In this document: one piece after another, positions 1,430-30,653 of the stretch
Numbering within the stretch: position 1 is the stretch's first letter
Layout: every line of letters starts with the position of its first letter
From: Umbilicaria muhlenbergii
Taxonomy: Eukaryota > Ascomycota > Lecanoromycetes > Umbilicariales > Umbilicariaceae
DNA length: 64,000 nucleotides
Direction of reading: 5' to 3'
NCBI GenBank assembly: GCA_000611775.1
Contig: KK106981.1
Location: forward strand, 6,284,312 to 6,348,311
Position numbers and translations under genes: made by a program
The notes under the pieces: generated by a model
Told to the model about the DNA's origin: nothing
Seen by the model: only the letters and a program-made list of their open reading frames with translations
Databases searched by the model: none

Positions 1430-3406
<1,977 letters not shown>

Positions 3407-4696: not shown

Positions 4697-6514
4697 TCAC
4701 TCCGCTGCGGCATAGTGAAAGTCATAGTCTTCCAAGCCATCCTCATGGCCGAGCATAGGGTCGTCAGCTATGCCGTGGCCGAACATGTCATTGGCTCCAT
4801 ACCCAGTTTCGAATCCGCTATAGGTCATATCGCGTGTGAGAGGTGGAATCGGCCCCCAATTCGTCGAAGCAGCGGAAGGCAGGTTGGAATAGGTATTGAT
4901 CGAATTGGCTTGCTGAGCATATTGAGATGGCATAATCCCAGGAGCCTCGAGTTGCGAATATAGGATCGAGGTTGGGGCAGGTAAGCCATGTCCAGCGTTC
5001 TGTTGAAGGGATTGATTGCTCATCGAATGGCTACCAAAGTCATTTGCAGGATAGTATCCGCGTGTGTGTCCGACAGACCCATAGCGAGAGAAATCGATCG
5101 CGTTGTTGCCGCTAACCTGTGGACTGGGTGCTGAGTATCCTGTGCTGGACCTACGCGACGGTGTGGAGCTGCTATGGTTTCTTCCCCTATCTTGATGAGG
5201 AGCGGCCAAATAGAGCTGCTGCTCAGCCACCCGATCAATTACATGTCCTGAGGAGCTCAGTTCTCTCGGCATGGAACGGGTAGTGTAGTCTGTTGTATTC
5301 CCCATGAGACTAATGCTTTCGTTTCGCAGGTTTTGCACCGCAGACTCCCCTGCGACAGCTAAGTTGGAAAGCTTTTCCAAGGGTGTCAAGGAGCGCTCAC
5401 CCTTCCCAATACGCAAGACAACCATCTTACTCGGACTCTCGGTCTGTTGGACTATGTTCTTGCTTTCAAAATCCTCCCGATCTTCATCTTCAAGATATTC
5501 AGCTTCGAAGCCGTCGTCTACTGGTTCTTGCAATTGCAGGAACGACGCACCTACGGCAACATACTCCTCATCGGTGTTGTACTTGCCTTCGAAATCGTCA
5601 TCGTCTTCCGGGTCTCCATAGTCAACACTGGAGCGGCGCTCACGATTTACCGCTGGAAGACCACGGAGTCTTTGGAGCGTGCTGGAAGCAGCGGCAGACT
5701 CTGCGTCCTCGACTTCCATCATGTCCTTGGCTTTGATCTTGTCAACCTCCGGTTGAGAGCGCTTACGCTTGCCGTTTGCTTTCTCGGCCTTTGGTACCAG
5801 TTCGTCGTCGTCATTACTGTCTTCTTTCTTGGCCCTACCCTTCTTACCCTTTGACTCACGCTTGACTCGCTTCGAACGTGCTTCAGCGAACTCTTCGTCG
5901 GGGTCGGAGGCCTTGTCGACGTCAAATTCTTCCTCGTCTTCTTCCTTGACCCCCTGTGCTGCATTCGAGGAAGCTCTATTGGCGGTAGCTTTGCTATTGC
6001 GTGCTGCTTTAGGCTTACTTGCGCTATAAGAACTTCCACTGTACCCGGTTGATATCAAACTCCCACCTCCACGTCGAAGAGGCGGAGGAACAGAGAGGCC
6101 TTGTGCAACCATGCGCTGGCGAAGCTTCGCAAGATGCTGGATAACGGCTCCGTCGCTGATGTTCTCGCCCATGATGGCACCAACCTTGTCCCATGGTATC
6201 TTGACTCCATCGGCATTGCAGACGGACTGGATCGTCAGTAGCAGTTTCTTGTCCATATCATCTGGAATCACAATTCATCAGCGTCCTTGGCTCGAAATTC
6301 AGGACCCGAAAGTAGGAGCGTCACCGGGGACTGTGAAAAAGCGTCTAGCGAAGCTAAAGCATTTCGGCGCATACCGCGAAACGACCCGGTGTTCTCGATC
6401 GCGAAGATATGGCGGCGCAAGCCTGCAAGAAAGACGCATAGGAAGGCCATTCTACGTACCTGTCCAGCGCACTAAATGCCGCTTGGCGGGTCTTGGAGTC
6501 CTCTGGCCAGCCAT
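4697..6514 (-). CDS. SML1: Myb/SANT-like domain protein, long form
   Basis: Two exons (6514-6460, 6261-4697) give 539 aa. The ATG at 6514 sits in a 55-nt first exon whose GTACGT donor joins in frame to give RWTDDMDKKLLLTI, matching the W-x(8-9)-LLL start of its neighbours. The domain spans residues 16-71: W17, LLL 25-27, PWDKVGAIMG as the second helix, AVIQHLAKLRQRM as the basic third. Behind it comes a Lys/Arg/Glu/Asp-rich stretch with GVKEEDEEE and KRVKRESKGKKGR (NLS-like and SUMO-consensus-like), then about 250 residues rich in S, N, Q, G and Y ending YDFHYAAAE. It is two to three times longer than the other members. A nuclear DNA- or chromatin-binding role is inferred from the domain; no target is known. 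Confidence 0.8.
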
Positions 6515-7787
6515 TTCGCTGGATGCTAGAGGGGTTGATCTTTATGACGTGTTTTGCTATCGGATTCAACGGGAGTTAGCCAAATACGAGGATATCAATG
6601 GAAGCTTTGGAACATGTGGCGGCACGCGACCAAAGCATATGCTGTTGGGAGGGGCAGCCTCTAGTTTGGCCCAACCCTGTAAGAGGCGGACGAAGCAAGG
6701 GAGGCATCAGACAATACGGTCAATGGCGTCGAGGTTCGCACGTTCGGAGATCTTCCACGACAATAGCAGTGCCAACAAGCGCGATCGTCATACGATCGGC
6801 CTCCCTCGACACGAAAGTGAAGCTCGGATGATATTGTCTGTGCGCTCCAGAGCGGAAGATCTCCACATACCTTTGATGTACTGGTGATGTTGACAATGAA
6901 TTCGACAGTGGATATTCGTCTGGCGATGTTCTGAAGAGGTAAAGGTCAACAAAGCAGATAATGAGTGTCTGCGGGAAGTCAAGAGAAGGACGAAAGAAGG
7001 AAAGGTTGAGGCGATATCGGTGGTTTTGTGGCTTCCACGATTGGTGCCTGACTATTCACTGTGGGTGAGGGGTTGTGGAGGTTAAGGTACCCACCTTGTT
7101 CAAGATGCAAGGCCTCGCTGGCGATCTATGATTCACTTACGGAAAGTATAAACCGGGTGTGCCTTGCCGTCGTCGCTCTGTCTCGATTAGGTCTTTGTGA
7201 ATGACCGTTTGCCAGCCGTTTGTCTGTCTGTGCTATCTGAGAATGAGTTCTTTCTCGACTAGTGTTATGTAGAACCGCGTCCACGGGTCTGGAAATTTGG
7301 CATCGTCAAGGCTGAAACGCTTAACAGCTGCGCACCTTTGTGGATATCCTCAGCTTCGGGACATAAGCGGGACAAAAGCGGGATAGAGGCGTTTGGAAGG
7401 ATATGCAGTCATCTCGGGGGAGGGGTCTAGCTAACTACGCTGCAGCCTGTCGCGGCGTGCAATCGAGGCGGCTTCAAGTTCGTTCCTGGCATATAAACGC
7501 CGCCACATGCGACCACCAGCTTCTTCCGGAAATACTCGACCGGCGCACTGCATGAATGTGGTAGGGATGCCTTTGACTTGGACCAAACACTACGTGGGGA
7601 AAGGCTCTCGAGGCGGATGGAAGTGATTCGTACTGTGTCCTTGCAGCCCCTCCGCAGTACTAACAATACAATAATCTAAAGCAGCTCTGCTGTGTGCTCA
7701 TCCGACCACGGTTTGGCGAGCATACAGTTAAGAGGTGTGCCCGCAGAAGAGTGCCGGATGTGCTAAGCTCCACATCTCCAGCCAGAC
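6515..7787. other. Intergenic within the SML array
   Basis: Upstream region of SML1 and 3' flank of SML2. Open frames here do not resemble the family or anything else I know. Confidence 0.5.
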
Positions 7788-8449
7788 TCAAATAGCACGT
7801 GGCTCCAACGTCTCTTCTTCATACGGGAGGAGGCCGTACTGATTGTTATACTCCATCTCTGCAGCAAGCATGTCCTCCTGACCCTCTTGCAACAACATTC
7901 CACACCCTTGCGCGCCCAAGATCGAGGGCTCGAAGTTCGTCTCGCCTCCCATCTCCAGTTTCACACCGCCCTCCTCTTCATCATCGTCAAAATCATCTTC
8001 CTCGAACTCCTCCTTCACTCCCGCATCCTTCTTGGCTTTCTTCTGAGAAGTAGGAGTGGAGACTGGAGCCTTACGTTTCTTAGTGATAGGGAACTTGGTC
8101 GCATCGCTATTAGCGGTTAATGCCATGTTGCCGGAGGCTGAACGAGTTCTCATCTTGATCTTCTTGAAGCGTTCTTCGATCGCGCGCGAGGTGCAATCGA
8201 ATCCTAGCGCAGCGGTCACCGCAGCGTAGTCAATCTTGATGTCGTGAACGGAGATGACAGTCAAGAGAAGGTGTAAATCGGCGCGCTCTGGATTAGGAAG
8301 TATGTCAGTAACATACTCATAACGGGTCTTTTGGAAATCACAATTGTGAGTTTTCATGCGGCCCAGAGCAAATGAGTTTGAACTGTGACTGCGGGATGCC
8401 GCCAGATGATTCTGGGTGGCTTACCGTCCCATTTTACTTTCGTCGACAT
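7788..8449 (-). CDS. SML2: small Myb/SANT-like domain protein
   Basis: Two exons (8449-8425, 8287-7788), 174 aa. The 25-nt first exon ends G|GTAAGC and restores MSTKVKWDERADLHLLL; the in-frame ATG at 8357 lies within the intron and would lose the conserved W. Domain at residues 6-56: KWDERADLHLLLTVISVHD, then KIDYAAVTAALG, then TSRAIEERFKKIKMR. The tail has KFPITKKRKAPVS and KKAKKDAG basic clusters, then GVKEEFEEDDFDDDEEEGG, an acidic run with a VKxE motif, and ends in Gln/Glu/Tyr-rich sequence. Helix 3 has no intron before it, unlike SML8-12. Closest by eye to SML9, SML11 and SML12 (AIEERF/AIEERI). Nuclear protein of unknown function. Confidence 0.82.
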
Positions 8450-9452
8450 ATTTTCCTTCGAGCGTTACTTGAATCGGATTGTTTTTCGTGTTGCTGTACG
8501 ACCACGAGCCTTCTCGTCAGCTGGAGGCGTTGCTTGGGATGATGAAAAGGGGGAACGTCGCGAAAGCTCATCAGGTCACACTCGGTGAGGTTAAGGCAGT
8601 CATGCGCGTGAGGATAAGAGGAATCGTCAGAGCAGGGAACCTCAAAGTTTACTTACAAAAGGGGGTCTTGGAGTGAGGGCTTGGAAGCGAAGGATTTGAG
8701 TTGGATGTTACTGTACCGAAAGTGGAGGAAATGAATAGTTGGCAATGAGGTCCCGAGGGGCGGAAATTCATAGAAGCTCGGGGCTTCGCGTTGAGCGAAG
8801 CGCGGCGGTAAACTCCATTAGGACGAGAATCTTATTTGGTGTGGTATCTCATAATTTCTGCTAGTTTTATTCTACAAATGTTGCCGCAAACACTCCACTG
8901 CCCATGCAAATAGCCCTAGAACGATGAGATAGAGTTGGTAAGACAGGGTTCATTTTAGCGTCATGCAAGCTTCCCGTCGCCAACGTGCAAATCAGAATCA
9001 TGGTTTATCCGACAGCTAGCCACACCGTAGCGGATAGCTTAAATCAACTCCCCAACTCCAGAACGAGCGGATGAGAAGATACCTTAGGCATCACGCTACG
9101 ATGCAATGTGCAAATGTTGTCCCTCACTGTTTGGCAGCTCTTCCCCTATTATCGTAATGCGTTTCTATGCTTTATTTATGGCTGTGCTCTTTTTGAAATA
9201 CGAGCTGATATTATTTATCTGCAGCTTTGCAGACGATCTGGACCGCAGAAAACAAGTCCATTCTGTACTGCTTCCACATAGCTACAAGATGGCTACCTAG
9301 CTCAAATTTCCGGTTGTACCGATGAGATGGAGAATAATAGCTTAGAAAAGTGGCGCTTGGGGATTTAAATCGACGCACAACCAGCAGAAACCCATCCCTC
9401 AGTTCCGCAGTCTGCTTCAGCTTGCTTCATCCGCCGACCGGAACAACCTCCG
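8450..9452. other. Intergenic within the SML array
   Basis: 5' region of SML2 and 3' flank of SML3, with AT-rich patches around 8840-8880 and 9150-9230. Nothing coding is supported. Confidence 0.5.
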
Positions 9453-10193
9453 TTAGTCAGTGATAAGGATGCTCTCGTGTAGGGCGTGTCCACTACCGCT
9501 GAATGCAGTTGAGGCCATGCCTTCCCTATCGCTCTGGCCAATCCCACCAAAAGTAGATTGAGGCATCAGCACGCTTGAATCATATGCACCGGCCTGGAGG
9601 AAGTCGTGAAAAATGGAACCATCGTCCGCTTTTCCAGCACCCTCAACATCAACCGACTGATATTGAAACCCGCTGGAAGCGACCTGCAGCTCACCGTCCA
9701 GGGCTGGCTCATTCTTAATGAGAGTACTTCCAACCTCGCTTTTGACCCTTTTCAACCCCTCGTCGTCGTCTGCTGTAGTGCTAGTGGTCTCGGAAAAATG
9801 ACTGAGCTTTGCTCTCTTATTCGAGCTGGTACGTTCTGTGTTTGACTTGCGGCACGTTGGGATCGGGGTTTCGCGGACAGGGGTAGCCTTATCATGGATA
9901 CCGTGTGCCTTCATCATGCGCTCGTACCGCTTTGCTCTACAGGGAGTGAAGAAAGGTGTCAGTGCATTACGCTTTCTTAGGTTGCGGCTTGCGGAGATGA
10001 TTTGTTGGGAGACTCACGCTGCGCCTTTCGTGACGATGCTGCATTCTCTGGCCACTTCACCAAAATCCACCTGGATGAGGTTAGCATGATCAAGCGGAAG
10101 ATGGGAGAAGGCTAAGATTACCTTGCCGTTGTTGGAATAACGAATGCATGAGATCAAGAACTTGAACTGCTCTTCATTGCTTGCTGGAGCCAT
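9453..10193 (-). CDS. SML3: small Myb/SANT-like domain protein
   Basis: Three exons (10193-10122, 10070-10018, 9936-9453), 202 aa, starting MAPASNEEQFKFLISCI. The first helix lacks the leading W of the LLL subgroup; KVDFGEVARECS is the second helix and AKRYERMMKAHG the third. Intron 1 lies in phase 0 directly before V-D-F, exactly where SML4, SML5, SML6 and SML8 are split; intron 2 lies just before helix 3. The tail carries a basic run (SNKRAKLSH) and two SUMO-consensus-like sites, RVKSEV and LIKNEP, then a Ser/Gly-rich end. No function can be assigned beyond probable nuclear DNA or chromatin binding. Confidence 0.8.
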
Positions 10194-10886
10194 GTTGAGA
10201 GGTTGTGTTGCTTCGAGTAAGGTGGAGCTTGTGTTCGCTGAGAAGAACTCTGTGGTCTGACGGTTGGTTGATGTTGACAGAGGATGAAAGCGATGTGACA
10301 GTATGTGTCGGTTGTGACAGATGGACAGGACGAAATACGCCAGAAAGCTAGTTTTAAGATTGTCAGGACTTATGGACCGACGTGACTAATAAGGTGGGAA
10401 GACTTACGAGATTGTCAACCACAGTCGTTTATAAGATCAATCGCAAGTTTCCGGACAAACCTGGGACGTGTAGAAAGAAAAGGTGGTGCAGGTGGCTACG
10501 TGCGTGGTTCTCCCGTCGCCATGAGGCTGCTGCGCGGTACTGGATCTTTACACATGAGTTTCATTGTCACCGAGGACTACAAATGGTCGTTCGTATACAT
10601 CCACTGGATCGATCGAGCGCACACTTTTCAAGGTTTGGATTCCTTCCAGACTGCTCGCCTACTCGATGTCTTCACGCTAGAGGCCGACAACGTGTTCCCA
10701 ATCAGCTCAGGCGATAAAATCGGTGCCACCTCACCCCATGTCTTGCAACATGTGCTAGACATGTACATATATTGGGACGCCGAGTATCCTCCAAAACACA
10801 CCAAGAACCCAACCAGAAAAGTCAGATACTCGGCGAATATTGGAGAAGGCACCAATACGCTGGGATTGAAATACCAGGCGAGACCT
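10194..10886. other. Intergenic within the SML array
   Basis: SML3 promoter side and SML4 3' flank. A long plus-strand frame from 10500 runs antisense into SML4 and has no family features, so it is treated as a shadow. Confidence 0.5.
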
Positions 10887-11526
10887 CTAAGCTCCTTCGT
10901 CCACCTCTTGTCCCGCCTCCTCGGACTCCTCCGCTACTTCTTCCTTGACTTCTTCCTGGACTTCCTCCTTGGTTCCTTTCTCCTCATCGTCAACGTTCTC
11001 ATCCTGCTTTGTAGCCGCAGCTTTCGTAGCTTTGGGCTTGCGTCCGCGCTTAGCAGCCGGCTTGGTCACGTCACCGCTCGCCTTACGCTTGTTTGTGGTC
11101 TTGGCGGGGCTACCATCGGGAGTTGCGGCGTTACCGGAGGCCGTGGCCGTGGTGTCGCCACCGCCGCTCAACTTGGCTTTCTTGAGGCGCATGAACATGA
11201 TCTTGGCATTCTTCGCATTCTTGTACCCAGCTTTGACCGCAACCTTGTCGAAGTCGATCTGTAATAGACGTCAGTATCTCATGTCTTGTGCTGGCCGGTC
11301 GCAGTGTTGAAAGAAAGCAATAAGATGTGGAGTGAACGAAGTCTATGACAACCATGAACTTTGAGGGTTGACGTCGACTGGCGAATTTTAGTATTGAAGT
11401 GTTGGGTGATAATCATCCGATATGATGACATATGAAGCTGACACTTACAGATGAACTGAAATCGCCTTTCAGGTATTCCATACACGCACAAAGGAGTTCA
11501 GTCTCCTTGGGGGTGAAGGTAGTCAT
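10887..11526 (-). CDS. SML4: small Myb/SANT-like domain protein, Lys/Glu tail
   Basis: Two exons (11526-11449, 11258-10887), 149 aa, the shortest member. Starts MTTFTPKETELLCACMEYL. The 190-nt intron falls in phase 0 before IDFDKVAVKAGYKN, the conserved site; helix 3 is AKIMFMRLKKAK. The tail is almost only K, A, T, E and V: KRGRKPKATKAA is an AT-hook-like RGRKP core, followed by repeated EEVQEEVKEEVAEE. The RGRKP core suggests minor-groove AT-DNA contact; this is inference. It groups with SML3, SML5 and SML6 by intron position. Confidence 0.82.
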
Positions 11527-12331
11527 GATCGTGGTGTTTCTGAAGTGAGACTTTGGATCGATCGGGATTTATTCGTCTGTGCTGACAGTCGAAGAACAAG
11601 TCAGTAACGATGAGAGCAATACCGATGTATGGATCTAGGCTAATGGATCCACTATGTACTTACTGGATGAAGATTGCTGATAATGCTGAAGCCTTCGAAT
11701 ATTGTGTCGTGGTCAAGGTCGAGGTTGAGGTTGAGCTGGAAGTTAACGGAATTTGGGGCGTGAAAGTGCTCTAGCCTCCGGGAAATGGTGTGGAGATCGA
11801 ACCCGATGTCGAGCTGGAAGTTAATGGAAGTCCGGGCGTGAGACTGGATGTGAAATTTCTTTGACACAAACAGCCGGTCACGATCTACCAACTTTGTGCA
11901 AACGCCGTGGAGTATCAGCCGGCAGCCATCAGAGCCCTGCTTAGGGCTGCAAGGAAAATCACGGGACATCCAAATCTGGTATCTACATGGACGACCTTTG
12001 GGCGACTAATGTGCAGGCACCAAGCTACCGGCTCCATGGCAAGCACGAGGTACTTTTAACGCTTCATACAACACACTTGCGGCCGCCAAAGAGAGTTGAA
12101 TTTCTCTCCTCGGTCGAGTGTTAAAGACAGAGTTCCCAGACTTGCATTTGCTATGAATCATTGAGATTTCGACATCAAGGCATTCATAAAACCTGGAGTC
12201 CCAAGTACCCATGGAAACATGCTTCGTTCATCAGCCCCAACCCTCTCCAGAAAAGTGGTGAAGCACAAAGAACAACGAGTTGGTAAGCCAGCATGCTCAT
12301 GCAGCAGCTGCTCTGCTTGCATTAGACCCTT
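11527..12331. other. Intergenic within the SML array
   Basis: SML4 upstream region and SML5 3' flank. Contains short similar plus-strand segments around 11708-11752 and 11806-11845 (ctggaagttaa..gga....ggggcgtga type), probably a local imperfect duplication. No coding call. Confidence 0.45.
11700..11850. repeat. Imperfect direct repeat, about 45 nt
   Basis: Two copies sharing GAGCTGGAAGTTAA and GGGCGTGA, separated by about 95 nt, with a GAGGTTGAGG partial copy just before the first. Visible by eye only. Not associated with a gene I can recognise. Confidence 0.4.
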
Positions 12332-13038
12332 CTACACGTCGTGGTGGTCGGCGTTGAGACTCGCCTCGTCCTCCTCGTTCATCTCCGCTTTCAACGCCGC
12401 CAACAAGTCGGTAGTGGTATTATCTCTTTGTCAACGTTACTTTGGAAAGTGTCACAAACATATTGGGCGGTTTTTACGTACCCTTTGCCTTCTTCCTCGT
12501 GCTTAGTCTCGTCGGAGGAGTTGTCATTGCTGTCAACGCCGCCGGAACCTAGCTCGTCGTCTTGAGCAACTTCTACTTTAGCAGAAGCTTTGCTGGCTCG
12601 CTTGGCGCGTGCACTTCCGGTAGTAGAGGCCTTTCTCTTGGTGACTTTGTTGACCGAGGTGAAGCCGGAGATAATTGGGGCTCCGCCTGTTCCTGCATCA
12701 CCAGACTTCCGCCCGAGTTTCTTCTTGATCTGTCCGAAACGCACACTCGCAACTCCTGCGTTCTTAAGGCTCATGGCTTTTGCGACAGCTTCCCAATCGA
12801 CCTAATACGAAATGTTAGTCTGCTCTGGGACTCATTTGTGTGAGATCTCGGACCTCGAAGGCTGCCGAGGAGTGTAACGCTCTATGTGGTGCACCTGACC
12901 CCGAAGGCGCGTTTGAAAAGGGGAGCATAAACAAGGTCATGTCAAGCTCACCTTTGGCTTGCCCTCCATGTTTTCCAGGACTGTCATCATGAACAATGCG
13001 TTCTTTTCATTCGCTTTGCCGACCTTGGTTGGCGCCAT
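12332..13038 (-). CDS. SML5: small Myb/SANT-like domain protein
   Basis: Three exons (13038-12952, 12801-12482, 12425-12332), 166 aa. The domain covers residues 10-61: KNALFMMTVLENMEG, VDWEAVAKAMSLKN, ASVRFGQIKKKLGRK. Intron 1 is in phase 0 immediately before V-D-W. After basic repeats (KRKAST, RAKRASKASAK) there is an acidic part with AKVEVAQDDE. Reading on without splicing gives a non-family tail; removing a 56-nt intron (GTACGT donor, TAACGTTGAC branch, AAAG acceptor) gives an acidic end, LKAEMNEEDEASLNADHHDV, that looks genuine. Stop therefore placed at 12332. Function unknown; probable nuclear protein. Confidence 0.8.
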
Positions 13039-13633
13039 CTTTATCGTAGAATGTCAGTCTTTTCTCACGTGACTACAGGGCTTAAGCTCACTTTTCGCTG
13101 CTTTGGGAGGGTTCTAGTACTCTAGAATTAGGACGTGTCTAAGTTGGGCCAAAGAGTCTTCTTGCCTGAGTTGATGCTTGGACTGAGTTACTTTAGATGA
13201 TCGTTTGTAAGTGGTGATGTTGTTATTAGGTAGAAGTAATGTGGAAGATTGTTGATGAAGATGGAAGAAGGGGCTCAGTCTCCGTGAAGGGTCGTGTTAG
13301 ACTAAGATCACTTCAGGGCAAGACTAGAAGCGACGACTAGCTCCGACGACTAAGCGGGTGTATTGTCGGCTTGGGCAGCGCAGTTGCTGCAGCAGTGTTG
13401 ACGAAGATTGTCTCTATGGGATCAATACAGCAGGAAGAGCCATTCGCTCAAGACACGAAGCTATGCTGATACCCCTGACATGCACACAGTAAGAACGAGT
13501 CTACCAGTCAGGCTACTAGCTAAAGCTCCGAGCAATCCATAACCAGGCCTTCTCCTCGTACCTCCTTGCGAGACTATGCGGTTTCTCCATGCGCCGGCCT
13601 CCAGCGACAGCGGACTTTGTCAGAGCCTTCCGG
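13039..13633. other. Intergenic within the SML array
   Basis: SML5 promoter side and SML6 3' flank; nothing coding supported. Confidence 0.5.
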
Positions 13634-14232
13634 TTACTCGTCCCAGTACACTTCAGCCTTGACCATTGGCTCCTGCTTCTTGATAACGCACGAAGAGAGT
13701 GCCTCAAACGCTGAAGCCTCGAAAGAATCGGTCATCTCGGCCATTCCTTCACTGTCATCGTCGCCAGTTTGCTCCTCCTTTACGGTTGGCTCTGGTTTGG
13801 TAAGTGGCTCGGCGTTTGTTGTCTGCTCGTCCATCGACATAGGTTCCGGTTTGGTAGGTGGCTCGACATTTGCAACCCGCTCGTCTATCGACATGGGTTC
13901 TGGCTTGACTGCCGCCGGCTCGTCATCGTCCTTCACCCTTTTCTCATGGTCTGCTTCGTGCTCGTGTTTCGGCTTCTTGTGACGTGGAACGTTGGGCCTT
14001 GGCCTCCGGGGAGCTGGTGGGACGCCTTCCATATGCTGTTTGAAACGTGAGAAGCGCATTCGAGCAGCGTGGCCATTGGTGATGTCTAGTTGGCCTGCCA
14101 CTTCGTTCCAGTCGATCTGTGCTGACCGTTAGTATGCAGACCAAATCTCGATAACCAGCCACAAACCGATTTTAGATCTAGTTGCTTCAGAATGGTGTAC
14201 AGGAACTTGCCCGTTGCGCCATCAGTGGGCAT
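13634..14232 (-). CDS. SML6: Myb-like domain protein with KPEPMS repeats
   Basis: Two exons (14232-14167, 14116-13634), 182 aa. The domain (residues 7-53: KFLYTILKQLDLKSIDWNEV, then ITNGHAARMRFSRFKQHMEG) is the form common in Pezizomycotina that I know as the fungal Myb-like DNA-binding domain (Myb_DNA-bind_8 type, from memory, unchecked). Helix 3 ending R.RFSRFK is the likely recognition helix. The intron is phase 0 before I-D-W. Then come PRRPRPNVPRHKKPKHEHE and a tail with three copies of a KPEP unit (VKPEPMSIDE, TKPEPMSMDE, TKPEPTVKEE). Best anchor for naming the whole array, as it is the least diverged member. Confidence 0.87.
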
Positions 14233-15330: not shown

Positions 15331-16028
15331 ATGCCAGAGAAATGGGACACCGCGCAGGAGCTTAAGCTCTTGTTGGGTATTATCGAGATCACGAACCCCA
15401 AGCCGCCCTCCTGGGATGAAGTGTCCGCCAAGATGGGATCTGGCTATTCCAAGGAAGCTTGTCGGTATGTAAGCCCACAGTCTATCATTGCGATGAGGAT
15501 CCTACTGTTACCGGATTCTGCTGCTGCGGTTCTACATTACAGCTCATGTAGCCATTACTACCATTTTCGACATGAAATAAACCTTGATGTCTGGTTCTTC
15601 CGTACTTCAGTGGCTTACATATGGTTGCCGCTGCTGTCTTTCTACTTTTGGGTCCTTTACAGCCGTATTCAGCGTCAGCTCACCTCTGCTCCAGTCAGCA
15701 TTACCACAAGCTCAAGAAAGATCCCGCCAAGAACGGCTCGCCTTCCACTCCCGCCGTTAACCCTACCAAAGCCGCTGCTGCCCCCAAGACCCCCAAGGCC
15801 GCCAAGAATAAGTCCACCAAAGCAGCTGGCACCAAGCGTAAGCGTGCTAAGAGCGTCGCTGCGAGCAACCACGACGGCGAGGAAGAGGATGCTACCGCGA
15901 CTATTGACGACAAAGATGAGGCTATTACTAAGAAGATCAAGACGGACCCCGGCCTTCGCCAGACCGAAATCATCAAGTCCGAAGAGAAGCTCGCGGATGG
16001 GAGTCTCGATCTTGCTCAAGATTCGTAA
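15331..16028 (+). CDS. SML7: small Myb/SANT-like domain protein
   Basis: Two exons (15331-15464, 15695-16028), 155 aa, starting MPEKWDTAQELKLLLGII. Helix 2 is SWDEVSAKMG and helix 3 SKEACRQHYHKLKKD, split in phase 2 by a 230-nt intron inside the Arg codon. The tail is Lys/Ala/Pro-rich (TPKAAKNKSTKAAGTKRKR), then acidic with IKTDPG and IIKSEEK. The stop TAA overlaps a perfect GTAAGT donor (16025-16030); splicing to the acceptor at 16179 would extend the protein by 12 residues (YVAWWEAVMDTF) to 16219. Both ends are possible; I give the simple one. Confidence 0.8.
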
Positions 16029-17173: not shown

Positions 17174-18049
17174 TCAGACCATATCAAACGACTCTCCACG
17201 CCCATCCGCCGCCGACCCCATCATCATCCCCTGAAAAGCATTGCCATTCCCGCCTCCACACCCCGCGCCACCCGCACCACTCATGCCCCAATCCTCCATC
17301 CCCATCCCCTGCGTCCCGAAACTACTCATCATGTTCTCTTCCATCATGCTCGACCCACTACTCAGAATCTCCTCCTTCACGCCCCTCACCACATTCGCCG
17401 CCGCCCCGTTCTTCATCCGCTGCTTCGTCGGCGTGTTATTCGCCGACTTGTTGACTCTGCCGCCCAGAACCCCGGTCTCTTTCTTCACGGCGGTTTTGGG
17501 GGTGCGGGTTTTTTTCGGGGTGGCGATTTGGGAGCGGTGGATGATGTCGTGGCCGTCGAGTCCGTCTTTGATGGTTTCGGTGGCGGGGGTGGGGTAGGTG
17601 CTGCCTTCGGCTTCGGATTTGAGGGTGGCGGCTTCCCGCTTGATGATGCGGAAGCGGCCTTCGATGCTGTCGTAGGTGGCGCCTGAAGGGGTTAATTTGG
17701 GGGGGCTTGGGGGGATCGGGGGGTTGGGGGCGTACCTCGCCCGTACATAGCTGCTATACGGCGGTAGTCGAGCTGTGACGAGGGCGGACTGTTAGTCGAG
17801 GGTATGGAAGAGAGGCGAGACGATGATGACAAGATGGCAGAACTTGCTAGTTGATACAAGGCCAAGAGACAGAACAGATCTTGAAGTCGAGACGGTGTGA
17901 AAAGTATGTGAGAATCCTGTGGGAGCACACAGATGTGCGTGCTTAAGAGAATCGAAGAGAGGATGATACAGTACCTTCATATCTTGTGCAGCGACCATGG
18001 CAGCGAGGAGGCGAGTGAAAGAATCTTTGTGTTTCCAGTCGACCGGCAT
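17174..18049 (-). CDS. SML8: small Myb/SANT-like domain protein, Met/Gly tail
   Basis: Three exons (18049-17975, 17772-17736, 17682-17174), 206 aa, starting MPVDWKHKDSFTRLLAAMV. The middle exon is only 37 nt and codes LDYRRIAAMYGRG. Helix 3 is YDSIEGRFRIIKREA. It is the one member with introns at both conserved sites: phase 0 before L-D-Y and phase 1 within the Gly before helix 3. The tail has the basic TPKKTRTPKTAVKKE and GVKEE, then a Met- and Gly-rich end (MEENMMSSFGTQGMGMEDW). Unknown function; bridging gene structure links the two intron subgroups of the array. Confidence 0.83.
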
Positions 18050-19432
18050 CGTGGCGGTTACTTGAGCGTTAGACTTGTGCGAGGAGCGGATTATGACGTG
18101 GACGTGGTGGTTATATCGAGGTTGTGGTCAGTTATGGTGTCCAAGTGACTACTCTGAATGTTGTCAGGTTGAGATGGAAAGAGTGGGAGTAAGATGTGAT
18201 ACTTACTATGTGAACCTGATGTGTTCAGTTACAGGATTCGACAGATGGCCCAGTGGGATGAGAGATGACAAGGTGAGAACTTGTGTGACGTTGCAATAGA
18301 AAGGACCAGTCTATATTGTGGTAACAGAGCCAATCTCAACCAACCCACTCCTGCTATCCTTGAAATTAATCAACTTGCTGAGGTACGACCACTGGCAAAA
18401 GATCGAACCACACAACCACACGGGCAGTCCTCTTTCTAAGGCAGTCGTTACAAAATCCATCGTAGCCACCTGGACTTCCGCACAGATATACCCCCTCTCC
18501 CTCTCCCGGTCCTCTATGCCAAAAGCCTCCTCTAAAGCAGCACTTCACGCACCCCCTATCCCCCACCTCCACCAATCTGCAAATGTGACTCACTGCCTTT
18601 CCACAACATCAGCCTCCCCACACTCACAAACCCAGTCCTTGCTGCATCGTCGTACTGTACAAACGTACAGCCCTGATGTGCCGATCCCTCCAAGCCCGAT
18701 AGTCACCCCGGTGAAGTCAGTTGTGCGCTAGTACCTGACGCTTGTTATGCAGTGCGCCAATCCTTTTGCAGGGATGTCGAGGGCGAGGATCTGGAAATAA
18801 GTGCGATATAGCGGCGCACAGGCTGGGTAACGAGTACACAGGGTAGGGAGGATCGCTGGACTGCATGCCATCTCTTCTGAGATATTGGTTTGTTTGTCTG
18901 TTCATTCGTCATGTATGGTATCCAGAATATGAGTGGTCCTTTATCCGATGCATGTAGCAAACGAACCGCTGTGAGGACCAAAATATACTCGGCTAAGGAT
19001 GCTTATAAAGAGCACCCCATAACTAGCTAAGTACCACACCGCCACCAACGTTTACAGGGTTATGAGATTGATTGCATGCAGAACAACTCGATTGGGGTCG
19101 GGGTCAAGGGTCGTCTGCGCGTGCGGCCTGCCGGGGAAACGGCGGCAAAGCGGGGATGCAATGCAGGCACTTTACGCGGTGCAGGTTGATCGGGCAACGG
19201 GTGCATGGGTATGAGAGAGGTGTGGGGTCCATGGAGAGGGGTTTAGATTGGCAGATGATACTGTGGTAGGGGACTGGGGATTGATTGATGGTTTACGTAG
19301 TATGTGAGCCGAGATTTTCAGGGTTTATTGCTGGATTGCTAGATGGTAGACTGTAGTACCTCGTAGACTGCGTAAGATTGTGCTAGATCGGAATCCTAGG
19401 ACACCCCCATCTGCTGGCCATCACTCAGTGAT
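18050..19432. other. Intergenic within the SML array
   Basis: SML8 upstream region and SML9 3' flank, 1.4 kb. CT-rich plus strand at 18470-18630. No coding sequence supported. Confidence 0.5.
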
Positions 19433-20295
19433 TCAAGCTTCCATAGGGACATCTTCGTCTATCTCGCCACCCTCAAACGCGGAATCCTCAGCCGCGGAGT
19501 CCTCGCTAGAGTTTGCAGCTTCCCCGAAGACCTTTCCCCCTTCTCCGTCGGTGTCAGCGTCCATGGTCGCAAACGGGTCGTCAAGGTGGGCGTAGTCGGT
19601 CTGTGAAATCTTGCGGGGAGAGGCACGCTTCTTCAGGACTCGACCGGCAAAAACCTTGTTCATAGCAGAGGAACTTGCGGTCTTGGTGGCCGGGGTGGGA
19701 GTTTCGGACTCAGTCTTGACGGTGATGGTGTCCTGATTGCAAGGGGTCTCTGGTGGAGTGCTAGATTGGGTGTGAAGATCGTTAGGTGATGCGTTGAGTT
19801 CATTGGATGAGGAAATAGTAGGCTCCATGTTCCCCTCCTGATCGCCATAGTTCTCTTTCTTGGTGAGGTTCCTAGTGATGGCTTTCTTAGATTGACCTTT
19901 GCTGGTGGATGGAGCAGGGCGGCGATTGGTGGTGATTGGTGTAGGTGTCGCAGTCAAACCCATCTTGGCGGCGTTCTTGCGGATTGCGCTCATCTTCGTT
20001 TGGATGCAGGAACCGGGAATATCAGGGCCTGAAATGTGTCAGCAGAATTGACCGATTCAGCGTGGGAATGAGCAGCTGTAGGAAACAGAGGTTGTTTATG
20101 CGTAGCCCTGTAGTGTATGGAAGAAGCCGGGGAGTGTATTAAAGGAAGTTCATGAAGGTAGCTGTTGCTCAACTTACCGAAGATAGCTGCCACGGCTGCA
20201 TGATTAACCTTAATATCGTGAACAGTCAAGATAGCAAGCAACAGCTTTGCTTCATTATCCGCCGTCCACGAAATGATCGTTTGTCCTTTCGGCAT
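19433..20295 (-). CDS. SML9: small Myb/SANT-like domain protein
   Basis: Two exons (20295-20178, 20028-19433), 237 aa, starting MPKGQTIISWTADNEAKLLL. Helix 2 is VNHAAVAAIFG; the 149-nt intron splits the following Gly codon in phase 1, as in SML8, SML11 and SML12; helix 3 is CIQTKMSAIRKNAAKMG. The tail holds a basic GQSKKAITRNLTKKE, a Ser/Thr/Pro-rich region with TVKTESETPT, a second basic patch RVLKKRASPRK and a strongly acidic C-terminus (EDSAAEDSAFEGGEIDEDV). Nuclear protein of unknown role by inference. Confidence 0.83.
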
Positions 20296-22228
20296 TGTTT
20301 GGTGGTTCTACGATGAACTTGATAACGAAATTCCTAGTGAGCGAAGATCTAAAAAAGTTTTGCGCTGATGGATTGGATGATATTTAGGAAGTGACAGGAG
20401 GACTGGACAGAACTGTATTGAAGTATTATAAGCGAGACCTGAGATGGAATAACAAGAGGAAATGAAGTGCAGAAATAGAGCTCAAGAACTCAACGATCCA
20501 AAGGTGATGGTAGATGCAAGTCAAACCACTTGACGTTATCAGTGTTGATATCACTTACTGCTGGTCAGGACTTATGGCGGTGAATGTTGTATCAAGCTCT
20601 AGATACTATGGGGAAGATGAGCGTTGATCAAACTAGGACTTGGAAGAGTTGTATGATGAGATGAAAGTAATTAGGAGGTAGAGAAACGATGGACAAGTGA
20701 GGTCAAAATCAGATCGTGAACTTGGAGGAGTGGCTGGGGATCCACAATGTAATCAAAGCTAGTTTCAGGAACCCCCAGGAATGCTTTCACGACCAGGTGG
20801 CACTTGACAATACCACATAGGAGAACAGCCAACTCGAGAGGACGCAGTATTATGCATGAGAGTCGACAACGAACGTTATCAAAATCGGGGCACAACGGTC
20901 AAGGGACTGCAAGAAAAGCCTTGGAACTGAGTATAGAACGCAAGCGCCTATCACGCAATTACAAAACCACAAGAGCAAACAGGAAGTCGGGTTATCTACC
21001 TATTTACAAACCACACAACACAGTATATCTCTTTTCTCGAACATAATTCTGCAAAGCCGTGATCATATCGACGGTCGCGAATACACCATTCGAGATCGAG
21101 GCTGCAGGTCGCGAATGATTATCCGCCACTCTACACATTTGCGTTATCGTCGGGAATCCTCATCCAACAAGTGCCTGCATAGCAATGCCGGGCCCATGCA
21201 CAGGCGTCCAGGTACTTGAAGCAAATCCACGGTCGACCGACCCCTGGCAGGTTCCTCCAGCGTGAACTCGAAGGGTTACCGGGAGAAGTTCCGCCCAGCC
21301 GGCGCTCAAGCCCCTCGAAAGCGACATACTCACACCGCCATACCTCTCCCCAAACCTGCAATCTCCTCTGCATTGCTTTGCCGCCGGTATCAGTGACTCA
21401 TATCCCACCATGCATGTCGAAAAGAAGGCTACAGATAGGCGTCAAGGTGACGGGGGAGGTTGAAGCAAGCTTCACGGACTACTGTAGCCGAAGTCTGCCG
21501 ATGGGTGTCAGGGGCCGCCGACTGGGCTGAGTGCTTGCATGCTTAGCGCGACATGGGGAAAACCATGCTTGAACGACATCTCAGGGCTTCGACCTTGGCA
21601 GGTGGAGATTGTCGTCGTCTACGGTGGCGTGCGTTGCCTGAAAGCATGGCGATCTTGTTTTATTGCCTTTCTCATCATGATAGGGTGGTGGCCATTATCT
21701 GGCGGTGCTGCACTAGAATTGAACCTTCACATGCGCGCCCCTGAGTGCTTGGCCCAGAATTGACTCTGGATGTTCATGCGGGGATACTTCGAGCTATTGG
21801 CTATCTGTAATTTCCTATAGCTGTGTGCTCCATCAGTTCGCATCTGCACTGTGATGCCGCTGCTTTTGACAAATTGCAACTGCCATCGTCAAACCCACTC
21901 CCACTGCCATGCCCCACAAGATTGCATCAACACTCGTTTATCTCACTCCGTGGCCTTGACCTTCGAACCTACAGCTTGAGATCTCACTTCCTGTTCCTCG
22001 AATTTCAGCATCTTTTTACACTCTCTACATTTATCACCCTCCCTTGAACTATCAGTTCAACTGCATCTATTTTCAAGGAAGAACAAACAATTCTAAGATC
22101 AAAGTAAGTCATTCTACCTCAAACAACTGGATTCTATCTTCCTCAACTCCGATACACCAAGAACTACATTGAAGCTAACAACATCCCCCAGCTTTCCAGA
22201 CTCTTCAATCTCGATCCAAGCTGTCAAA
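20296..22228. other. Divergent intergenic region SML9 / SML10
   Basis: 1.9 kb shared upstream region. The right end holds the SML10 leader with a probable 5' UTR intron. Other open frames are short and unrelated to known families. Confidence 0.5.
22104..22191 (+). other. Probable 5' UTR intron of SML10
   Basis: GTAAGT donor at 22104, GCTAAC branch point and CCCCCAG acceptor ending at 22191, 37 nt before the SML10 ATG. Sequence signals only. Confidence 0.55.
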
Positions 22229-23291
22229 ATGCCTGTCAAGTGGACCCCCGAGATGGACCAACTTGTAAGTCCGTTCTCACCTCCCCATCAACTCTCACTT
22301 CCCGCACATTCCACTTCCACAGATCCCGTCAGCCCCTCCACACTCCGCCTCCGCACTCACTTCCACTCCCTCACACCCCTCTCTAACCTTACCTCCCCTA
22401 CCGCCCACTCTCATCCAAACTAACCTCCTCCCCTTAGCTCCTTCTCAAGATCCTCGAAACCTGTGACGTTAATGCCGACGCTAAAAAGATCTCCACCGCC
22501 TGGCGTAAGTCTCCCAACCTATACCCTCTCCAACCCCCATCCCTTCTCCCCTCCCTTTCTTCCCTCCTATCTCATCCTTCTCCTCCTCCTATCTCATCCC
22601 TTCTCCCCTCCCCTTTACTCCTCCGTCCCCAATCGTACCCCCATACCCATCCCCATCGACTAACCCCTTCCTCCCCCCGTTAGCAACCGACTGTCCCAAC
22701 GGCCTCCCCACCGCCCGCGCCATCACCGAACGCCTCGTAAAAATCCGCGACTCCGCCAAGAAAAACGGCGCCGGCCACTTTAACATCTCCTCTGCGCAGA
22801 GCAAAGGCACCGGGACCAAGCGTGCGGGGGGTGGTACGCCGCGGAAACCTCGCGCTGCCAATGGTTCCGGGATACCGGGGAGTGGTGCGGGTAAGCGCAA
22901 GCGCAACGGAGGTGCGGGTGGGAATGCGAATGGGAGTGGGAAGGATATAAACGGCCATGAGGGCGCGGAGAATGAGGATGACGAAGAGGTCGTGGATGTG
23001 AAGCTCCCCAAGACGGAAGATGAAGACGAGGCGGATGTGTTTTGGGCCGGAAAGGCTGGGCTGGGACGTGTTGGGAACGGGAATGGGGTTGGTGCTACTG
23101 CGAATGGGGACGGGGATTCGAAAGACTTTGTGGTGAACGTTGATGAGGTAGGTGGGGACGGGGAGGATTGTATGCACAAGAGCCCGGCGAAGCGTGCGAA
23201 GAGGGAGGGAACGAGTAAGGTGGATGGGTATGGCAGTGATGGGCAGGTAGGGGGGGACCGCAGTGTGAGTGAGTTTGCGGATGTGGCTTGA
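22229..23291 (+). CDS. SML10: small Myb/SANT-like domain protein
   Basis: Three exons (22229-22264, 22438-22504, 22684-23291), 236 aa. MPVKWTPEMDQLLLLKILET is the clearest W-T-P-E start of the array. Intron 1 (phase 0) follows DQL; intron 2 (phase 1) splits the Pro codon before helix 3, ARAITERLVKIRDSAKKNG. Both introns are very C/T-rich on the coding strand. The tail is Gly/Asn/Lys-rich (KRAGGGTPRKPRAA, AGKRKRNGG), acidic (ENEDDEEVVDVKLPKTEDED) and again basic near the end (SPAKRAKREG). Only SML7, SML10 and SML12 lie on the plus strand. Likely nuclear; function unknown. Confidence 0.85.
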
Positions 23292-23712
23292 GCTTGAGGA
23301 GGGGGGTGCGAGGTGTTGCTCGAGGAGGATGTGCGGAATGTTTGGAGAGCGGTCTTTATGGTTTGGAGAGGTTGTGGCTACCTAGCTCAGGGAGGGGTGG
23401 CTGCAGCTCTTTATGTGCGCGGGGGCGGTGGGTTCGTTCAATGCGATTGATTGCTATTATCGTGGCGATTTTCCAGTCACTTGATGAAGAGCTAAGTCAC
23501 ACAGATCTCGTTCATGGGTTCGACTAAGTTTGAATGTGGATGACGTTGCTACCTTCACGATGATCCTCCGGTCGCTTGGAGAAGGACTAAATCACAAATC
23601 TCCTCCCTATATTAAACTAAATCGCAATGTGAATGACCAAGTCCCCTTGACTCTTCTTAGACATGTGGACTGGGAGATATCCAACCGTAAAAAGCTCCAC
23701 TTCAGCTCAAAG
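23292..23712. other. Intergenic between convergent SML10 and SML11
   Basis: 421 nt of 3' flanks; nothing else seen. Confidence 0.6.
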
Positions 23713-24389
23713 TCACTCCTCAGCACCCCCGTCGGCTAGGAATTTCCCGTTCTCAAGCTTGATTCGCTTCCCGGTCTCCATCTTTTCCACCTTCAGCCCC
23801 TCTTCTTCATCGTCGGCAGCATCCTGAGACCCTCCTGATGCCTTAGCGTCACCACTCGCATTGCGTTTGGTGCCTTTCTTCGCAGGGGACTTGGTGGCGT
23901 TGGTGGGAGTCTTGGTGCCGGCGGCTTTGGTTGGTGTCTTCGGTCCTTTCTTAGTGGTGCTCTTTGGGACTGCGCCGTCAGCTGAGGCTGCGCTGGTGGG
24001 ATCGACGTCTCCTTTCTCGGCCTTCTCTTTCAACTTCTGGATGTGCTTCTTGACGGCGAGCGCAGTAACATCTATGAAAGTTGTAAGCGTTGGGTGTGCT
24101 GATGGGATGCCGGGGTTAGGGTCAAGTGGTGGGAGCATGTGGGGTCGAGCGCTTGAGGTACTTACCAGCACCGGTCGCAGTAGCCAAGGCGGCATAGTCC
24201 AACTTGATCTCATGTGTCTTGAGGATATTCAGCAGAAGCTGTTCGCAATGTCAGTAGGGTGCTTAACGATGTGAGGTTGAGATATGAGAGATAGCAATGA
24301 TAGGATACAGGATATTGGGCGAGGAAAGGGATGTCGTGATGGTCTTGACTTACCTGAACATCCGCTTCGTTGGTCCAGTTCATAGGCAT
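23713..24389 (-). CDS. SML11: small Myb/SANT-like domain protein
   Basis: Three exons (24389-24354, 24238-24166, 24071-23713), 155 aa, starting MPMNWTNEADVQLLLNIL. Intron 1 is phase 0 right before LLL, intron 2 phase 1 before helix 3 (LAVKKHIQKLKEKAEKG), matching SML10 and SML12. Helix 2 is KLDYAALATATG, nearly the same as SML2 (KIDYAAVTAALG). The tail is a lysine-rich stretch with repeated TP/KTP units (KGPKTPTKAAGTKTPTN) recalling linker-histone tails, then EEEGLKVEKMETGKRIKLE, with a SUMO-consensus-like LKVE. A second ATG two codons downstream could also serve. Function unknown. Confidence 0.84.
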
Positions 24390-26600
24390 CTTGACGGGCG
24401 GGACTGTGAGGTTAAGAGTGTGATATTGTGTAATGTCAAAATGTTTAAAGTAAACGATGGTATGAGTAGAGTGGTAGAATGTTATGTTGAAGTGGGTGGT
24501 CGGGAAGTCAAGAGGAATGGGAGGGATGGAAGGAGGTGATGAGAGATGAAAGTGAGATGTTTAAGATCCTGGTCGGGTATCTTTGAGCAGAAGCACAATC
24601 GACCACGCTAGAGCAGTGCTGGAGATATAAAAACCTAGAGCGGCACAGATCTTGTGTTTGGCCTGCTTACACAAGGGCGAACAGATCGTGCGTCGATTGT
24701 AAAACAGTTGAGCAGATGGAACCTAAGGCAAGACTCGCCGAGTTCGGTGCTTGTTTGTTGTGACAATATTTGAGATTCTCGAATGGAGCAGAAACAGATT
24801 TAGCAGCCCCTGTCATAGAAGGTAACGTTCCAGAGAACCTGAACGGTGTGCTCAACATCAGACAGACAGACGATAAATCAACAAGGCTCCCAGAGCGTTA
24901 ATCTTATTCGCTGAAGGATTGGAGATCGAGGCATGATAGTAATAAAGGATGATGCTTTTGGAAGGCCTTCCAAGTCGCCTTCCCTATCATCGACATGTAG
25001 AACTTCTCAAGCAGCTCCGGCATCCTACTCTTCTCGATTACAATGCAAGAACGTCCTTTTTATCAACTTGAGTACTCCATACTCGAGTGGCCAAGAATAT
25101 CTAGGAGACGTCGTCGGCAATCAATAGCAAGTCGAGCTACTAGTATCTGAAAACGGTTAGCAGCTTAATTCTCGCCAGGACATCCGCTGACATCGTTGCG
25201 ACAACATCACAGTCACTATTGACACTTATAACACCCAAGATCCATTGATTGAGTCTATTCGTAGCTCGCTCTCTATACGTAATTCGTCCCTCTCATATGT
25301 CGTCACAGTCACATGCACTGCAGCGGCCGCTAGGTGTACATCCAATTGAGGTGACTCTGGCCATTTCATAAGGTCATGGCTGTTCTATAAGGTCCTTGCT
25401 AAGGGCTGTCCTAAACACATAACCGTGGACAGTGGCATATGATAGAAGATACTCCGCCAGCACTCTCTAGCATTTCTATTTTGATCTCATTGCTCGTCTT
25501 GTTCTTGGTTCTTACAGCGGGTGCTTCCAAAGCCGATTCTACGATCTCTCTTAAGATGCTGAAATGAATACTCTGTTTGATTCTATTCCATGTTCTGCTT
25601 GATCTCCATGATTTAATGGCTGTACCTAAAGGTAGGGCGGTCCTCGAACTCGAATCAGAGCCTCTCACGGCTGCCCCCCTACCACAAATTTTACCATATA
25701 GGGCTTGCAGGATGAACACACATCAGGAGCTCCTTCGGTAGTGCCATGGCTACCTGGACCTCTGTCTGTTCCGAACCCTTGAAGTCCCCACGTCGTTTGC
25801 TGACATACTTTCGAGTATTTCTTTTTCTCGACTCTCGGTTCACATCTGCCTCGACTGGCTCATTACTAGGGGTTAAGAAGAGGCATGGTGTTATTCTTTG
25901 GTATTGACATGAGGTATCCTGGTCTTATGTTGCCCTAAAATCCCATCTGGAAGCATCGTTTCTGCGACTTTCTTCTCAGGACGGCCAAAGATTAGAGTTG
26001 GGAGGAGCCCTTCGCAATCGGTTCGAAAGAATGGACTGGACTGGACTGAATCCATCCAGTTCAGTTTGTCCAGACTGCGTCTAACGCTGCTCAAGTATCG
26101 ATACACGCAAGGCTGTTTGTGTTCTCTTTTCCAGTCCACCAATTTTGCGATTTCTCTGCCGCTGCATCATCTCGATTTGCGTACGGTGGACATCTCTGTA
26201 AACCCGTCGGCACAGGGCACTCGAACCTGAAAGGCGCAGACATCTTGCTCGCTTTCGAAAAGAGTCACACATATCGAAAGGAGTCACACATCATTCACAT
26301 AGAACAACTCGTCATCAAACCACTGTGAATAATGAATGTATTCACGTTGACCCCTTCCTGTTCATTCTTCCTAAAAGACACCGTTCTTCGTTCTATTTCA
26401 TACCACTCTATCCTTCTCTACTCTTCTCCATCATCTTCAACACTACTCCATCATCGAGTTACACCACCGAACTCATTTCTATCAAATTCCAAGAGATTTA
26501 CGAGTAAGTTTCCATGTTCCGATACTTTGGCATCAACACTCAACTTACTCGTAGCTCACCATCCGGCAATCTTTGTATTTTTGAACCAGGAGACGTCACC
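24390..26600. other. Divergent intergenic region SML11 / SML12
   Basis: 2.2 kb, the longest gap in the array. The right end is the CT-rich SML12 leader with a probable UTR intron. No coding sequence or RNA gene supported; a short tRNA-like fold at 25630-25684 was rejected. Confidence 0.5.
26504..26589 (+). other. Probable 5' UTR intron of SML12
   Basis: GTAAGT donor at 26504 and TTTTTGAACCAG acceptor ending at 26589, 11 nt before the SML12 ATG. Matches the arrangement upstream of SML10. Confidence 0.5.
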
Positions 26601-27638
26601 ATGGCCAACCGTAAGCAGATCGTACGTATTTCCTTGATGAACTACCCTGAATTGAAAGGGTATCATCCATCACATTTACCGGTTTCGAGTGGTTTTATCT
26701 CTCAGGGTTACTGACATGGTGCTTTCATAGACCTGGAATGCGGAGAACGATCGAACGGTACATTACTAGATCCTCGTACTATGACAGCTTGTACACTTCT
26801 TTTGCTCTGGATCAGACTGACAGCAATACCGTAATAGCTGCTTCTACAGTGCATGCGTGGCACGGTCAGGGATCTTCCCCTGGCGAAGATAGTTCGCATG
26901 TTTCCCGGTATGTCTTTTCTTGCGCATTATTGTTCAAGCAAAGACCTCGCCAGTGGAGGTCAACATCCAGCACCTTGGCTCCCTCCTCCGCAAACCGTTG
27001 AACCTTCTCTAGTGCCTGTGCTAAATCTTTAAGATCTAGGTGCGACTACTAAAGCCATAGAAGAACGCATCGCAAAGCTCCGTCGCAAAGCCAAGGATGC
27101 ATTGGCCGCAGTGGACCTACTTCCCTCTGACGCACCAGCAATCCGAACGTCGGAGCCTTCTCCTCGCCAACGCCGCACCATGCAATCTGCCTTGGATGGC
27201 TCTACCGCCGAAACCAATACAGGCTCTACTTCAGGGAGCAGGAAGAGAAGCCGGGTAAGCATAACTGCACAGCGCGCGGCCGAAAAGGCCAGAATGTTTG
27301 GCGGAGCGGTCGATGATGAGGATCCGGCCTTCGCTGAAGCAAGACTGAAGCGGGTGAAGAAGCAGGAGGAAGAGGACGAAGACGATGTCAAGGGGATTGG
27401 GAAGGCGGAGATGGCCGTGGTTGAGCGTCATCGACGTCCGCATGGGATGGCCGGTGAAGTGGAGGTGGGGAAGGAGGTTGTCCTCTTGACACCCCCCGCG
27501 AAAATGGATGCATCGGAGGTAACCGAGGAGGTCAAGGAAGAAGAGAAGAAGACCACTACCCCAATGGTAGACCAGAAGAACGTCGACCTGGACAATGCCA
27601 AGAAGGAACCCGTTGTAGAGACTAAGATGGAGATCTAA
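26601..27638 (+). CDS. SML12: small Myb/SANT-like domain protein
   Basis: Four exons (26601-26621, 26731-26757, 26838-26907, 27040-27638), 238 aa. The 27-nt second exon codes TWNAENDRT, the conserved W segment, and the third LLLQCMRGTVRDLPLAKIV; an upstream acceptor at 26787 was rejected because it brings a stop. Intron 3 splits the Gly codon in phase 1 before ATTKAIEERIAKLRRKAKD, as in SML8, SML9 and SML11. The tail is Arg-rich (SRKRSRVSITAQRAAEKAR), then acidic (KKQEEEDEDD) and ends in repeated V-K-E-E (EVTEEVKEEEKK). It closes the array; the next gene is unrelated. Confidence 0.83.
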
Positions 27639-30217: not shown

Positions 30218-30653
30218 GATGCCTCTCTCGTGTTCTTCCGTCACACGTCGACTCAACATTCGCTACCTTTCTTCCGCCTGAGGCGTTTCCATTTTCTTTT
30301 CGTTTCCGAAGCAGAGATACCAGTTCGAGCGTTTTTCTTCCTATGCTGCTTGTACTCCGTTCTCGAAGAGAAAGGTAGGGTGGGAGTACTGAAAAACGGA
30401 ATGGTGCTTGCGTATTTTCCGTATGGTGGAGGAGGGCTGATAGATCGAATGCTTTTCTGATGCGGACTTGAGGGGCGTGATTGTATTCGTGATTTCTTCT
30501 TCGCGTTGGGAGAACGTGAAGTCTATAAATCACACCTGTAGACACTACATCGGCTACCAACTTACAATCCCAGTATACACTTGCCCCATCTCCTGGCCGA
30601 AGCAACACCCAACTTAACCTCCCACCACCCCATCCAACCCACCGCCTCTCCAT
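30218..30653. other. Intergenic between convergent genes
   Basis: 3' flanks of the MARVEL-like gene and NAA35; nothing else seen. Confidence 0.6.

Follow-up and report, generated by a model that had tools for sequence, protein, structure and literature searches.

A tandem array of twelve diverged Myb-like genes with a SUMO-type motif signature in Umbilicaria muhlenbergii

Are twelve small genes that lie side by side in the genome of Umbilicaria muhlenbergii the diverged copies of one family, and what could their products have in common? The genes, here named SML1 to SML12, occupy positions 4697-27638 of a 64,000-nucleotide stretch of contig KK106981.1 (assembly GCA_000611775.1, positions 6,284,312 to 6,348,311), referred to below as the window. 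A preliminary description of the window had proposed twelve genes in 23 kb, each with a single Myb/SANT-like domain, and this is confirmed by fresh gene models, a splice-free scan and leave-one-out profiles. All twelve genes encode one N-terminal domain of about 55 residues followed by a tail. The models, which jointly span 4697-27638 exactly, comprise 2,640 codons, none of them an internal stop; all introns are GT-AG and every model runs from an ATG to a stop. SML1-12 are homologous members of one Myb-like family. In addition, most of their tails carry a SUMO-motif signature that had gone unnoticed in the preliminary description.

Hand-splicing may force a pattern onto a sequence. The six-frame segments of the window of at least 12 residues were therefore scored, without splicing, with a profile of 14 domains, i.e., the twelve of the array and two from dispersed members of the family. 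The top 23 segments (9.7-68.1 bits) are all located inside the array and each gene has at least one segment scoring at least 14.0 bits. Outside the array no segment exceeds 7.2 bits, and the reversed window yields at most 5.9 bits. Two exons do not stand out, the third of SML3 (6.7 bits) and the second of SML12, which is short (3.8 bits), and the matches listed include none of the first exons of SML1, 2, 10 and 11, all of them very short.

As the 14-domain profile includes the scanned sequences, an independent test is provided by leave-one-out profiles. SML1-12 score 12.0-57.8 bits against the 13 other members and 13.9-56.9 bits when only array members are used, in both cases with 0/5,000 shuffles for each protein. 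With 5,000 shuffles of each array member in each of three runs, the real score was reached only once, for SML8. SML8 is the weakest of the twelve, with 11.3 bits (1/5,000) in the first run and 12.0 and 13.9 bits (0/5,000) in the repeats. The dispersed member on C3 is weaker, with 11.1 bits (0/5,000) and 8.2 bits (1/5,000). Whether a hidden Markov model comparison fails to link the members was a check proposed in the preliminary description, and all twelve are recovered by the leave-one-out profiles. Some links are visible even between single sequences. In whole-genome protein searches SML11 finds SML2 (E 1.5e-7) and SML9 (E 0.085), SML2 finds SML9 (E 0.0018) and SML8 finds SML2 (E 0.015). SML1, 6, 7, 10, 12 and the C3 member find only themselves; the array members used as queries were SML1, 2, 6, 7, 8, 10, 11 and 12.

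Which domain do these proteins contain? Searched as full proteins against the Pfam family PF22980 (Myb_DNA-bind_8), four of the twelve exceed the curated cut-off of 27 bits, i.e., SML3 (83.7 bits, E 5.4e-24), SML6 (64.7 bits, E 4.6e-18), SML5 (45.6 bits, E 4.3e-12) and SML4 (27.1 bits, E 2.6e-6). Three are found below it, SML2 (14.2 bits), SML7 (17.9 bits) and SML11 (14.5 bits), and five have no match. With isolated domains, 8/12 match at E <= 10. The eight proteins that score below the cut-off or have no match are related to SML3-6 by the leave-one-out profiles and are not filed here as PF22980 members. The array also differs from PF22980 in containing a subtype that bears a tryptophan (W), and in its twelve-gene arrangement. 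The preliminary description had given one domain pattern including this W for all genes. The W is absent from SML3-6; in SML1 it is provided by the upstream exon 6460-6514, as W-T-D-D.

The relationship to the classical Myb/SANT domains is more distant. One isolated domain matches PF00249 (Myb) with E 0.00046, and full-length SML7 matches it below the cut-off (18.2 bits, E 0.0028). The family profile has seven matches among solved structures at E <= 10, all weak (0.025 to 2). SNAPC4 ranks first (E 0.025), transcriptional adaptor 2 (ADA2) second (E 0.092) and SWI/SNF subfamily C fifth (E 0.88), and we take the matched chains of these three to be Myb/SANT domains. The other four are an archaeal helix-turn-helix regulator, a bacterial sigma factor and two transport proteins. 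In addition to these weak matches, the likeness consists of three predicted helices and of a W plus LLL pattern in helix 1. Myb/SANT domains usually carry several tryptophans, whereas the SML domains have at most one of the usual ones, and none of the matches to classical Myb/SANT families exceeds a curated cut-off. A match of SML1 to HTH_5 (E 0.12) and other sub-threshold Pfam matches were dismissed as chance. The full SML1 protein has no Pfam match at E <= 1, and no full SML protein matches a linker-histone family at that level.

Predicted structures had been proposed as a check for unrelated folds. Two members were modelled with AlphaFold2 and both models contain three helices: SML2, from an eight-row alignment (predicted local distance difference test score, pLDDT, 69; predicted template modelling score, pTM, 0.40), and SML1, from the single sequence (pLDDT 62, pTM 0.39). 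Both models omit the first exon that bears the W. The net charge of the third helix is +2 to +6 in all 14 members, while the rest of the domain is net negative in 11 of 14, a count that is the same with or without one extra K in the C2 sequence. This is the charge pattern that would be expected of a helix contacting DNA.

How did the array arise? In the alignment of the domains, SML1 and 2 have an intron at column 6 in phase 1, SML3, 4, 5, 6 and 8 at column 29 in phase 0, and SML10, 11 and 12 at column 13 in phase 0. Further sites are located at columns 40-42 in phase 1 (SML8 to 12) and at columns 53-54 in phase 2 (SML3 and 7). Intron positions and phases are thus common to neighbouring genes, which points to serial local duplication. 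Twelve of the 14 detected members of the family lie within 23 kb of a 34.8-Mb genome. The remaining two are single genes at C2:357.2-358.3 kb and C3:5522.7-5523.8 kb, and both have a phase-0 intron directly ahead of the [IV]D pair, like SML3-6. More diverged members may have escaped, as the genome was searched exon by exon and only the best candidates were scored. The evidence supports the array being the product of an old local duplication of one family. The proposal that a family of small Myb-like proteins, probably nuclear, had expanded locally long ago is thus upheld by the shared profile, the intron positions and the basic third helix. It had also been claimed that no unrelated gene separates the members, and this agrees with a scan of nine open reading frames (ORFs) from the gaps, a subset of the gap ORFs that includes one partly antisense to SML8; none has a Pfam match at cut-off, and one has a weak match to RuvA_N (E 0.085).

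Similarity between the tails is harder to read. Above the shuffle level (<=2/200) are 16 of the 66 tail pairs, a likeness that is weaker than it appears because of the low-complexity composition. SML1 and SML12, at opposite ends of the array and on opposite strands, both have FAEAR.KRVK in their tails. At the DNA level, window positions 5861-5985 and 27330-27544 in these two tails form an inverted match (80% over 30 nt, 71% over 49 nt) that links the array ends. Elsewhere in the genome, a PF22980 match at C1:10306872 (E 0.41) was dropped as chance, as it sits, by our reading, among retroelement-like ORFs; positions 3000-6000 of the surrounding region (G000:C1:10302500-10311500) contain many short ORFs resembling a broken retroelement. 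The SML6 domain found no match among plasmid records.

The tails have one clear feature in common. The motif [VIL]KxE occurs at 17 sites in 10 of the 12 tails, while 1.82 sites are expected in shuffled tails, and none of 5,000 shuffles reaches this number. The control patterns [VIL]E.K (1 versus 1.80) and [VIL]R.E (1 versus 1.09) occur at chance level. Among 121 patterns of the form [VIL]X.Y, with X and Y taken from eleven residues, [VIL]K.E ranks first with 9.6-fold enrichment, and the runner-up reaches 4.9-fold on 3 counts. There is no enrichment in 35 other ORF segments (8 versus 7.8; 11,945 residues from the window and four loci, taken stop to stop, so that some are perhaps not genes), nor in the 12 charged segments of this background (7 versus 5.3, 135/500 shuffles). 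Two sites are also present in either dispersed member, where 0.39 (C2) and 0.24 (C3) would be expected; with 281 and 113 of 5,000 shuffles, respectively, the excess is modest for each when taken alone. Inside the domain, the motif is found only in SML8 among the 14 members.

The sites are VKEE and VKRE in SML1, VKEE and VKLE in SML2, VKSE and IKNE in SML3, VKEE in SML4, VKPE, VKEE and VKAE in SML6, IKSE in SML7, VKKE and VKEE in SML8, VKTE in SML9, LKVE and IKLE in SML11, and VKEE in SML12. Their contexts vary from protein to protein, i.e., they are not one copied site. Acidic residues are commoner near the sites than in the tails overall (0.26 versus 0.17, a direct comparison made without shuffles). 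The tails had been described as basic/acidic; their charge is indeed mixed, but 8/12 are net acidic.

A passage of PMC3395311 gives [IVL]KxE as the sequence present in most studied SUMO substrates. The enrichment suggests that the tails of most SML proteins are candidate SUMO-controlled regions. The genome also contains a SUMO-like ORF at G000:C4:527600-528200, which we presume to be SUMO itself. Separately, five adjacent Rad60-SLD family matches, three of them scoring identically, are found at G000:C2:3058689-3059844, a polyubiquitin-like tandem that we take to be polyubiquitin.

What could such a set of proteins do? We suggest that the tandem array consists of twelve old paralogues encoding small DNA-binding regulators with a common SUMO switch, probably a repressive one, and assign this explanation a probability of about one half. 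It starts from the homology, the local duplication, the intact frames with mild coding-like codon use, the charge of the third helix, the motif enrichment and the presence of a SUMO-like gene. The proteins would enter the nucleus by means of basic clusters in the tail, and the basic third helix of the N-terminal three-helix domain would contact DNA. SUMO, attached to the [VIL]KxE lysines of a probably disordered tail, would then switch the protein. SUMO on many transcription factors favours repression or limits synergy, and by analogy repression or limited synergy would be the most likely effect here. Divergence of the third helix could provide the twelve proteins with different targets under one common switch.

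Several observations weigh against this explanation. The tails of SML5 and SML10 contain no [VIL]KxE at all, and the motif was noticed by eye prior to testing. SML1, 8, 9, 10 and 12 have no match to PF22980 as full proteins. Confidence in the two structural models, at pLDDT 69 and 62, is low to middling, and a Foldseek search of the PDB with the SML2 model gave no match at E <= 10, a result of little weight for 56 residues. Finally, no motif is shared by the 400-nt regions upstream of the twelve genes: their most frequent 7-mers (P 0.47) and 8-mers (P 0.85) are no more frequent there than in random segments of the window, so co-regulation of the SML genes is unsupported.

The explanation that ranks next, although we consider it doubtful, is that these are architectural chromatin proteins, i.e., redundant variants in which a weak, non-specific domain anchors the protein to DNA and short linker-histone- or HMG-like tails rich in lysine, alanine and proline shape the chromatin. 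The tail of SML7 is rich in lysine and alanine and that of SML11 in lysine, alanine and proline, and as K/A/P/T-rich sequences they fit this description; so do motifs of the KTP, KSP or TPKK type, present in several tails, and the AT-hook-like KRGRKPK in SML4. However, this is the single clear AT-hook-like core, linker-histone tails are strongly basic, unlike the eight net acidic tails here, and an enrichment of SUMO sites is not predicted by such a role.

Two other explanations are less likely. The clustering, the strong divergence and the SUMO-type signature would also suit a fast-evolving set for genome defence or recognition, a role raised in the preliminary description, e.g., one silencing mobile elements by analogy with the KRAB zinc-finger clusters of vertebrates. 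We regard this as improbable, as the nine gap ORFs scanned include none recognised as a mobile-element or defence gene and two members stand alone elsewhere in the genome. A decaying array with several unexpressed members is the least probable of all. The weak domain of SML8 would be in line with decay, as would the four-exon model of SML12, which was picked by eye from 17,940 distinct open splicings found by exhaustive search and ranks 7th by profile score (22.8 bits versus 26.2 for the best). Relics are, however, difficult to reconcile with 2,640 stop-free codons, canonical splice sites and a codon use that in 12/12 genes is shifted, mildly (z 1.8-4.8), from a synonymous neutral draw toward the seven long ORFs of the window. 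The raw codon score per codon is slightly negative for SML1 and SML10.

How does an array of small regulators with a common SUMO switch compare with known systems? KRAB zinc-finger clusters consist of clustered DNA-binding paralogues tied to SUMO-dependent silencing. The SML array is alike in its clustering and its SUMO link, but the domain is unrelated and the comparison is one of analogy only. It is possible, if rather unlikely, that the array is in principle a fungal counterpart of the KRAB zinc fingers, a clustered, SUMO-gated set whose members would bind different DNA sites and obey a single SUMO signal.

Homeodomain-like proteins are one of the three families that drive the growth of the fungal transcription factor set, according to passages of Shelest 2017 (PMC5415576), where Myb and SANT are absent from the text and no tandem array is described. 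In the open-licence literature we found no paper naming "Myb_DNA-bind_8" or "PF22980", and no description of such an array or tail signature among the matches listed. The earlier statement that no description of such a cluster is known thus stands within this literature. The domain itself is already catalogued as PF22980; what the literature searched does not describe is the array with its tail signature. With an array of twelve that has a SUMO-motif signature in common, a domain so far catalogued but uncharacterised becomes a family whose mechanism can be tested. As a natural series, the array also allows one to ask how targets are split among tandem copies of a DNA-binding domain; if conserved, it would be a clustered set of regulators of a kind unusual for fungi.

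The orientation of the genes had been called scrambled. This is only partly so: nine are on the minus and three on the plus strand, but the first six are all minus. SML1 (4697-6514, minus, 539 aa) has exons 6460-6514 and 4697-6261 and a tail of 464 aa. It is followed on the minus strand by SML2 (7788-8449, 174 aa; exons 8425-8449 and 7788-8287), SML3 (9453-10193, 202 aa; exons 10122-10193, 10018-10070 and 9453-9936), SML4 (10887-11526, 149 aa; exons 11449-11526 and 10887-11258), SML5 (12391-13038, 165 aa; exons 12952-13038 and 12391-12801) and SML6 (13634-14232, 182 aa; exons 14167-14232 and 13634-14116). SML7 (15331-16028, 155 aa; exons 15331-15464 and 15695-16028) is on the plus strand, while SML8 (17174-18049, 206 aa; exons 17975-18049, 17736-17772 and 17174-17682) and SML9 (19433-20295, 237 aa; exons 20178-20295 and 19433-20028) are again minus. 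SML10 (22229-23291, 236 aa; exons 22229-22264, 22438-22504 and 22684-23291) is plus, SML11 (23713-24389, 155 aa; exons 24354-24389, 24166-24238 and 23713-24071) minus, and SML12 (26601-27638, 240 aa; exons 26601-26621, 26731-26757, 26838-26907 and 27034-27638) plus. The gaps between the genes measure 421 to 2,211 nt.

By Pfam, the array is flanked on the left by cofilin/ADF (PF00241) and HSP60 (PF00118) at window positions 333-2998, and on the right by a MARVEL-domain protein (PF01284) and an NAA35-like protein (PF25789, below cut-off) at 29558-31121. Upstream of SML4, at window positions 11716-11846, two 53-nt copies are found that are 75% alike.

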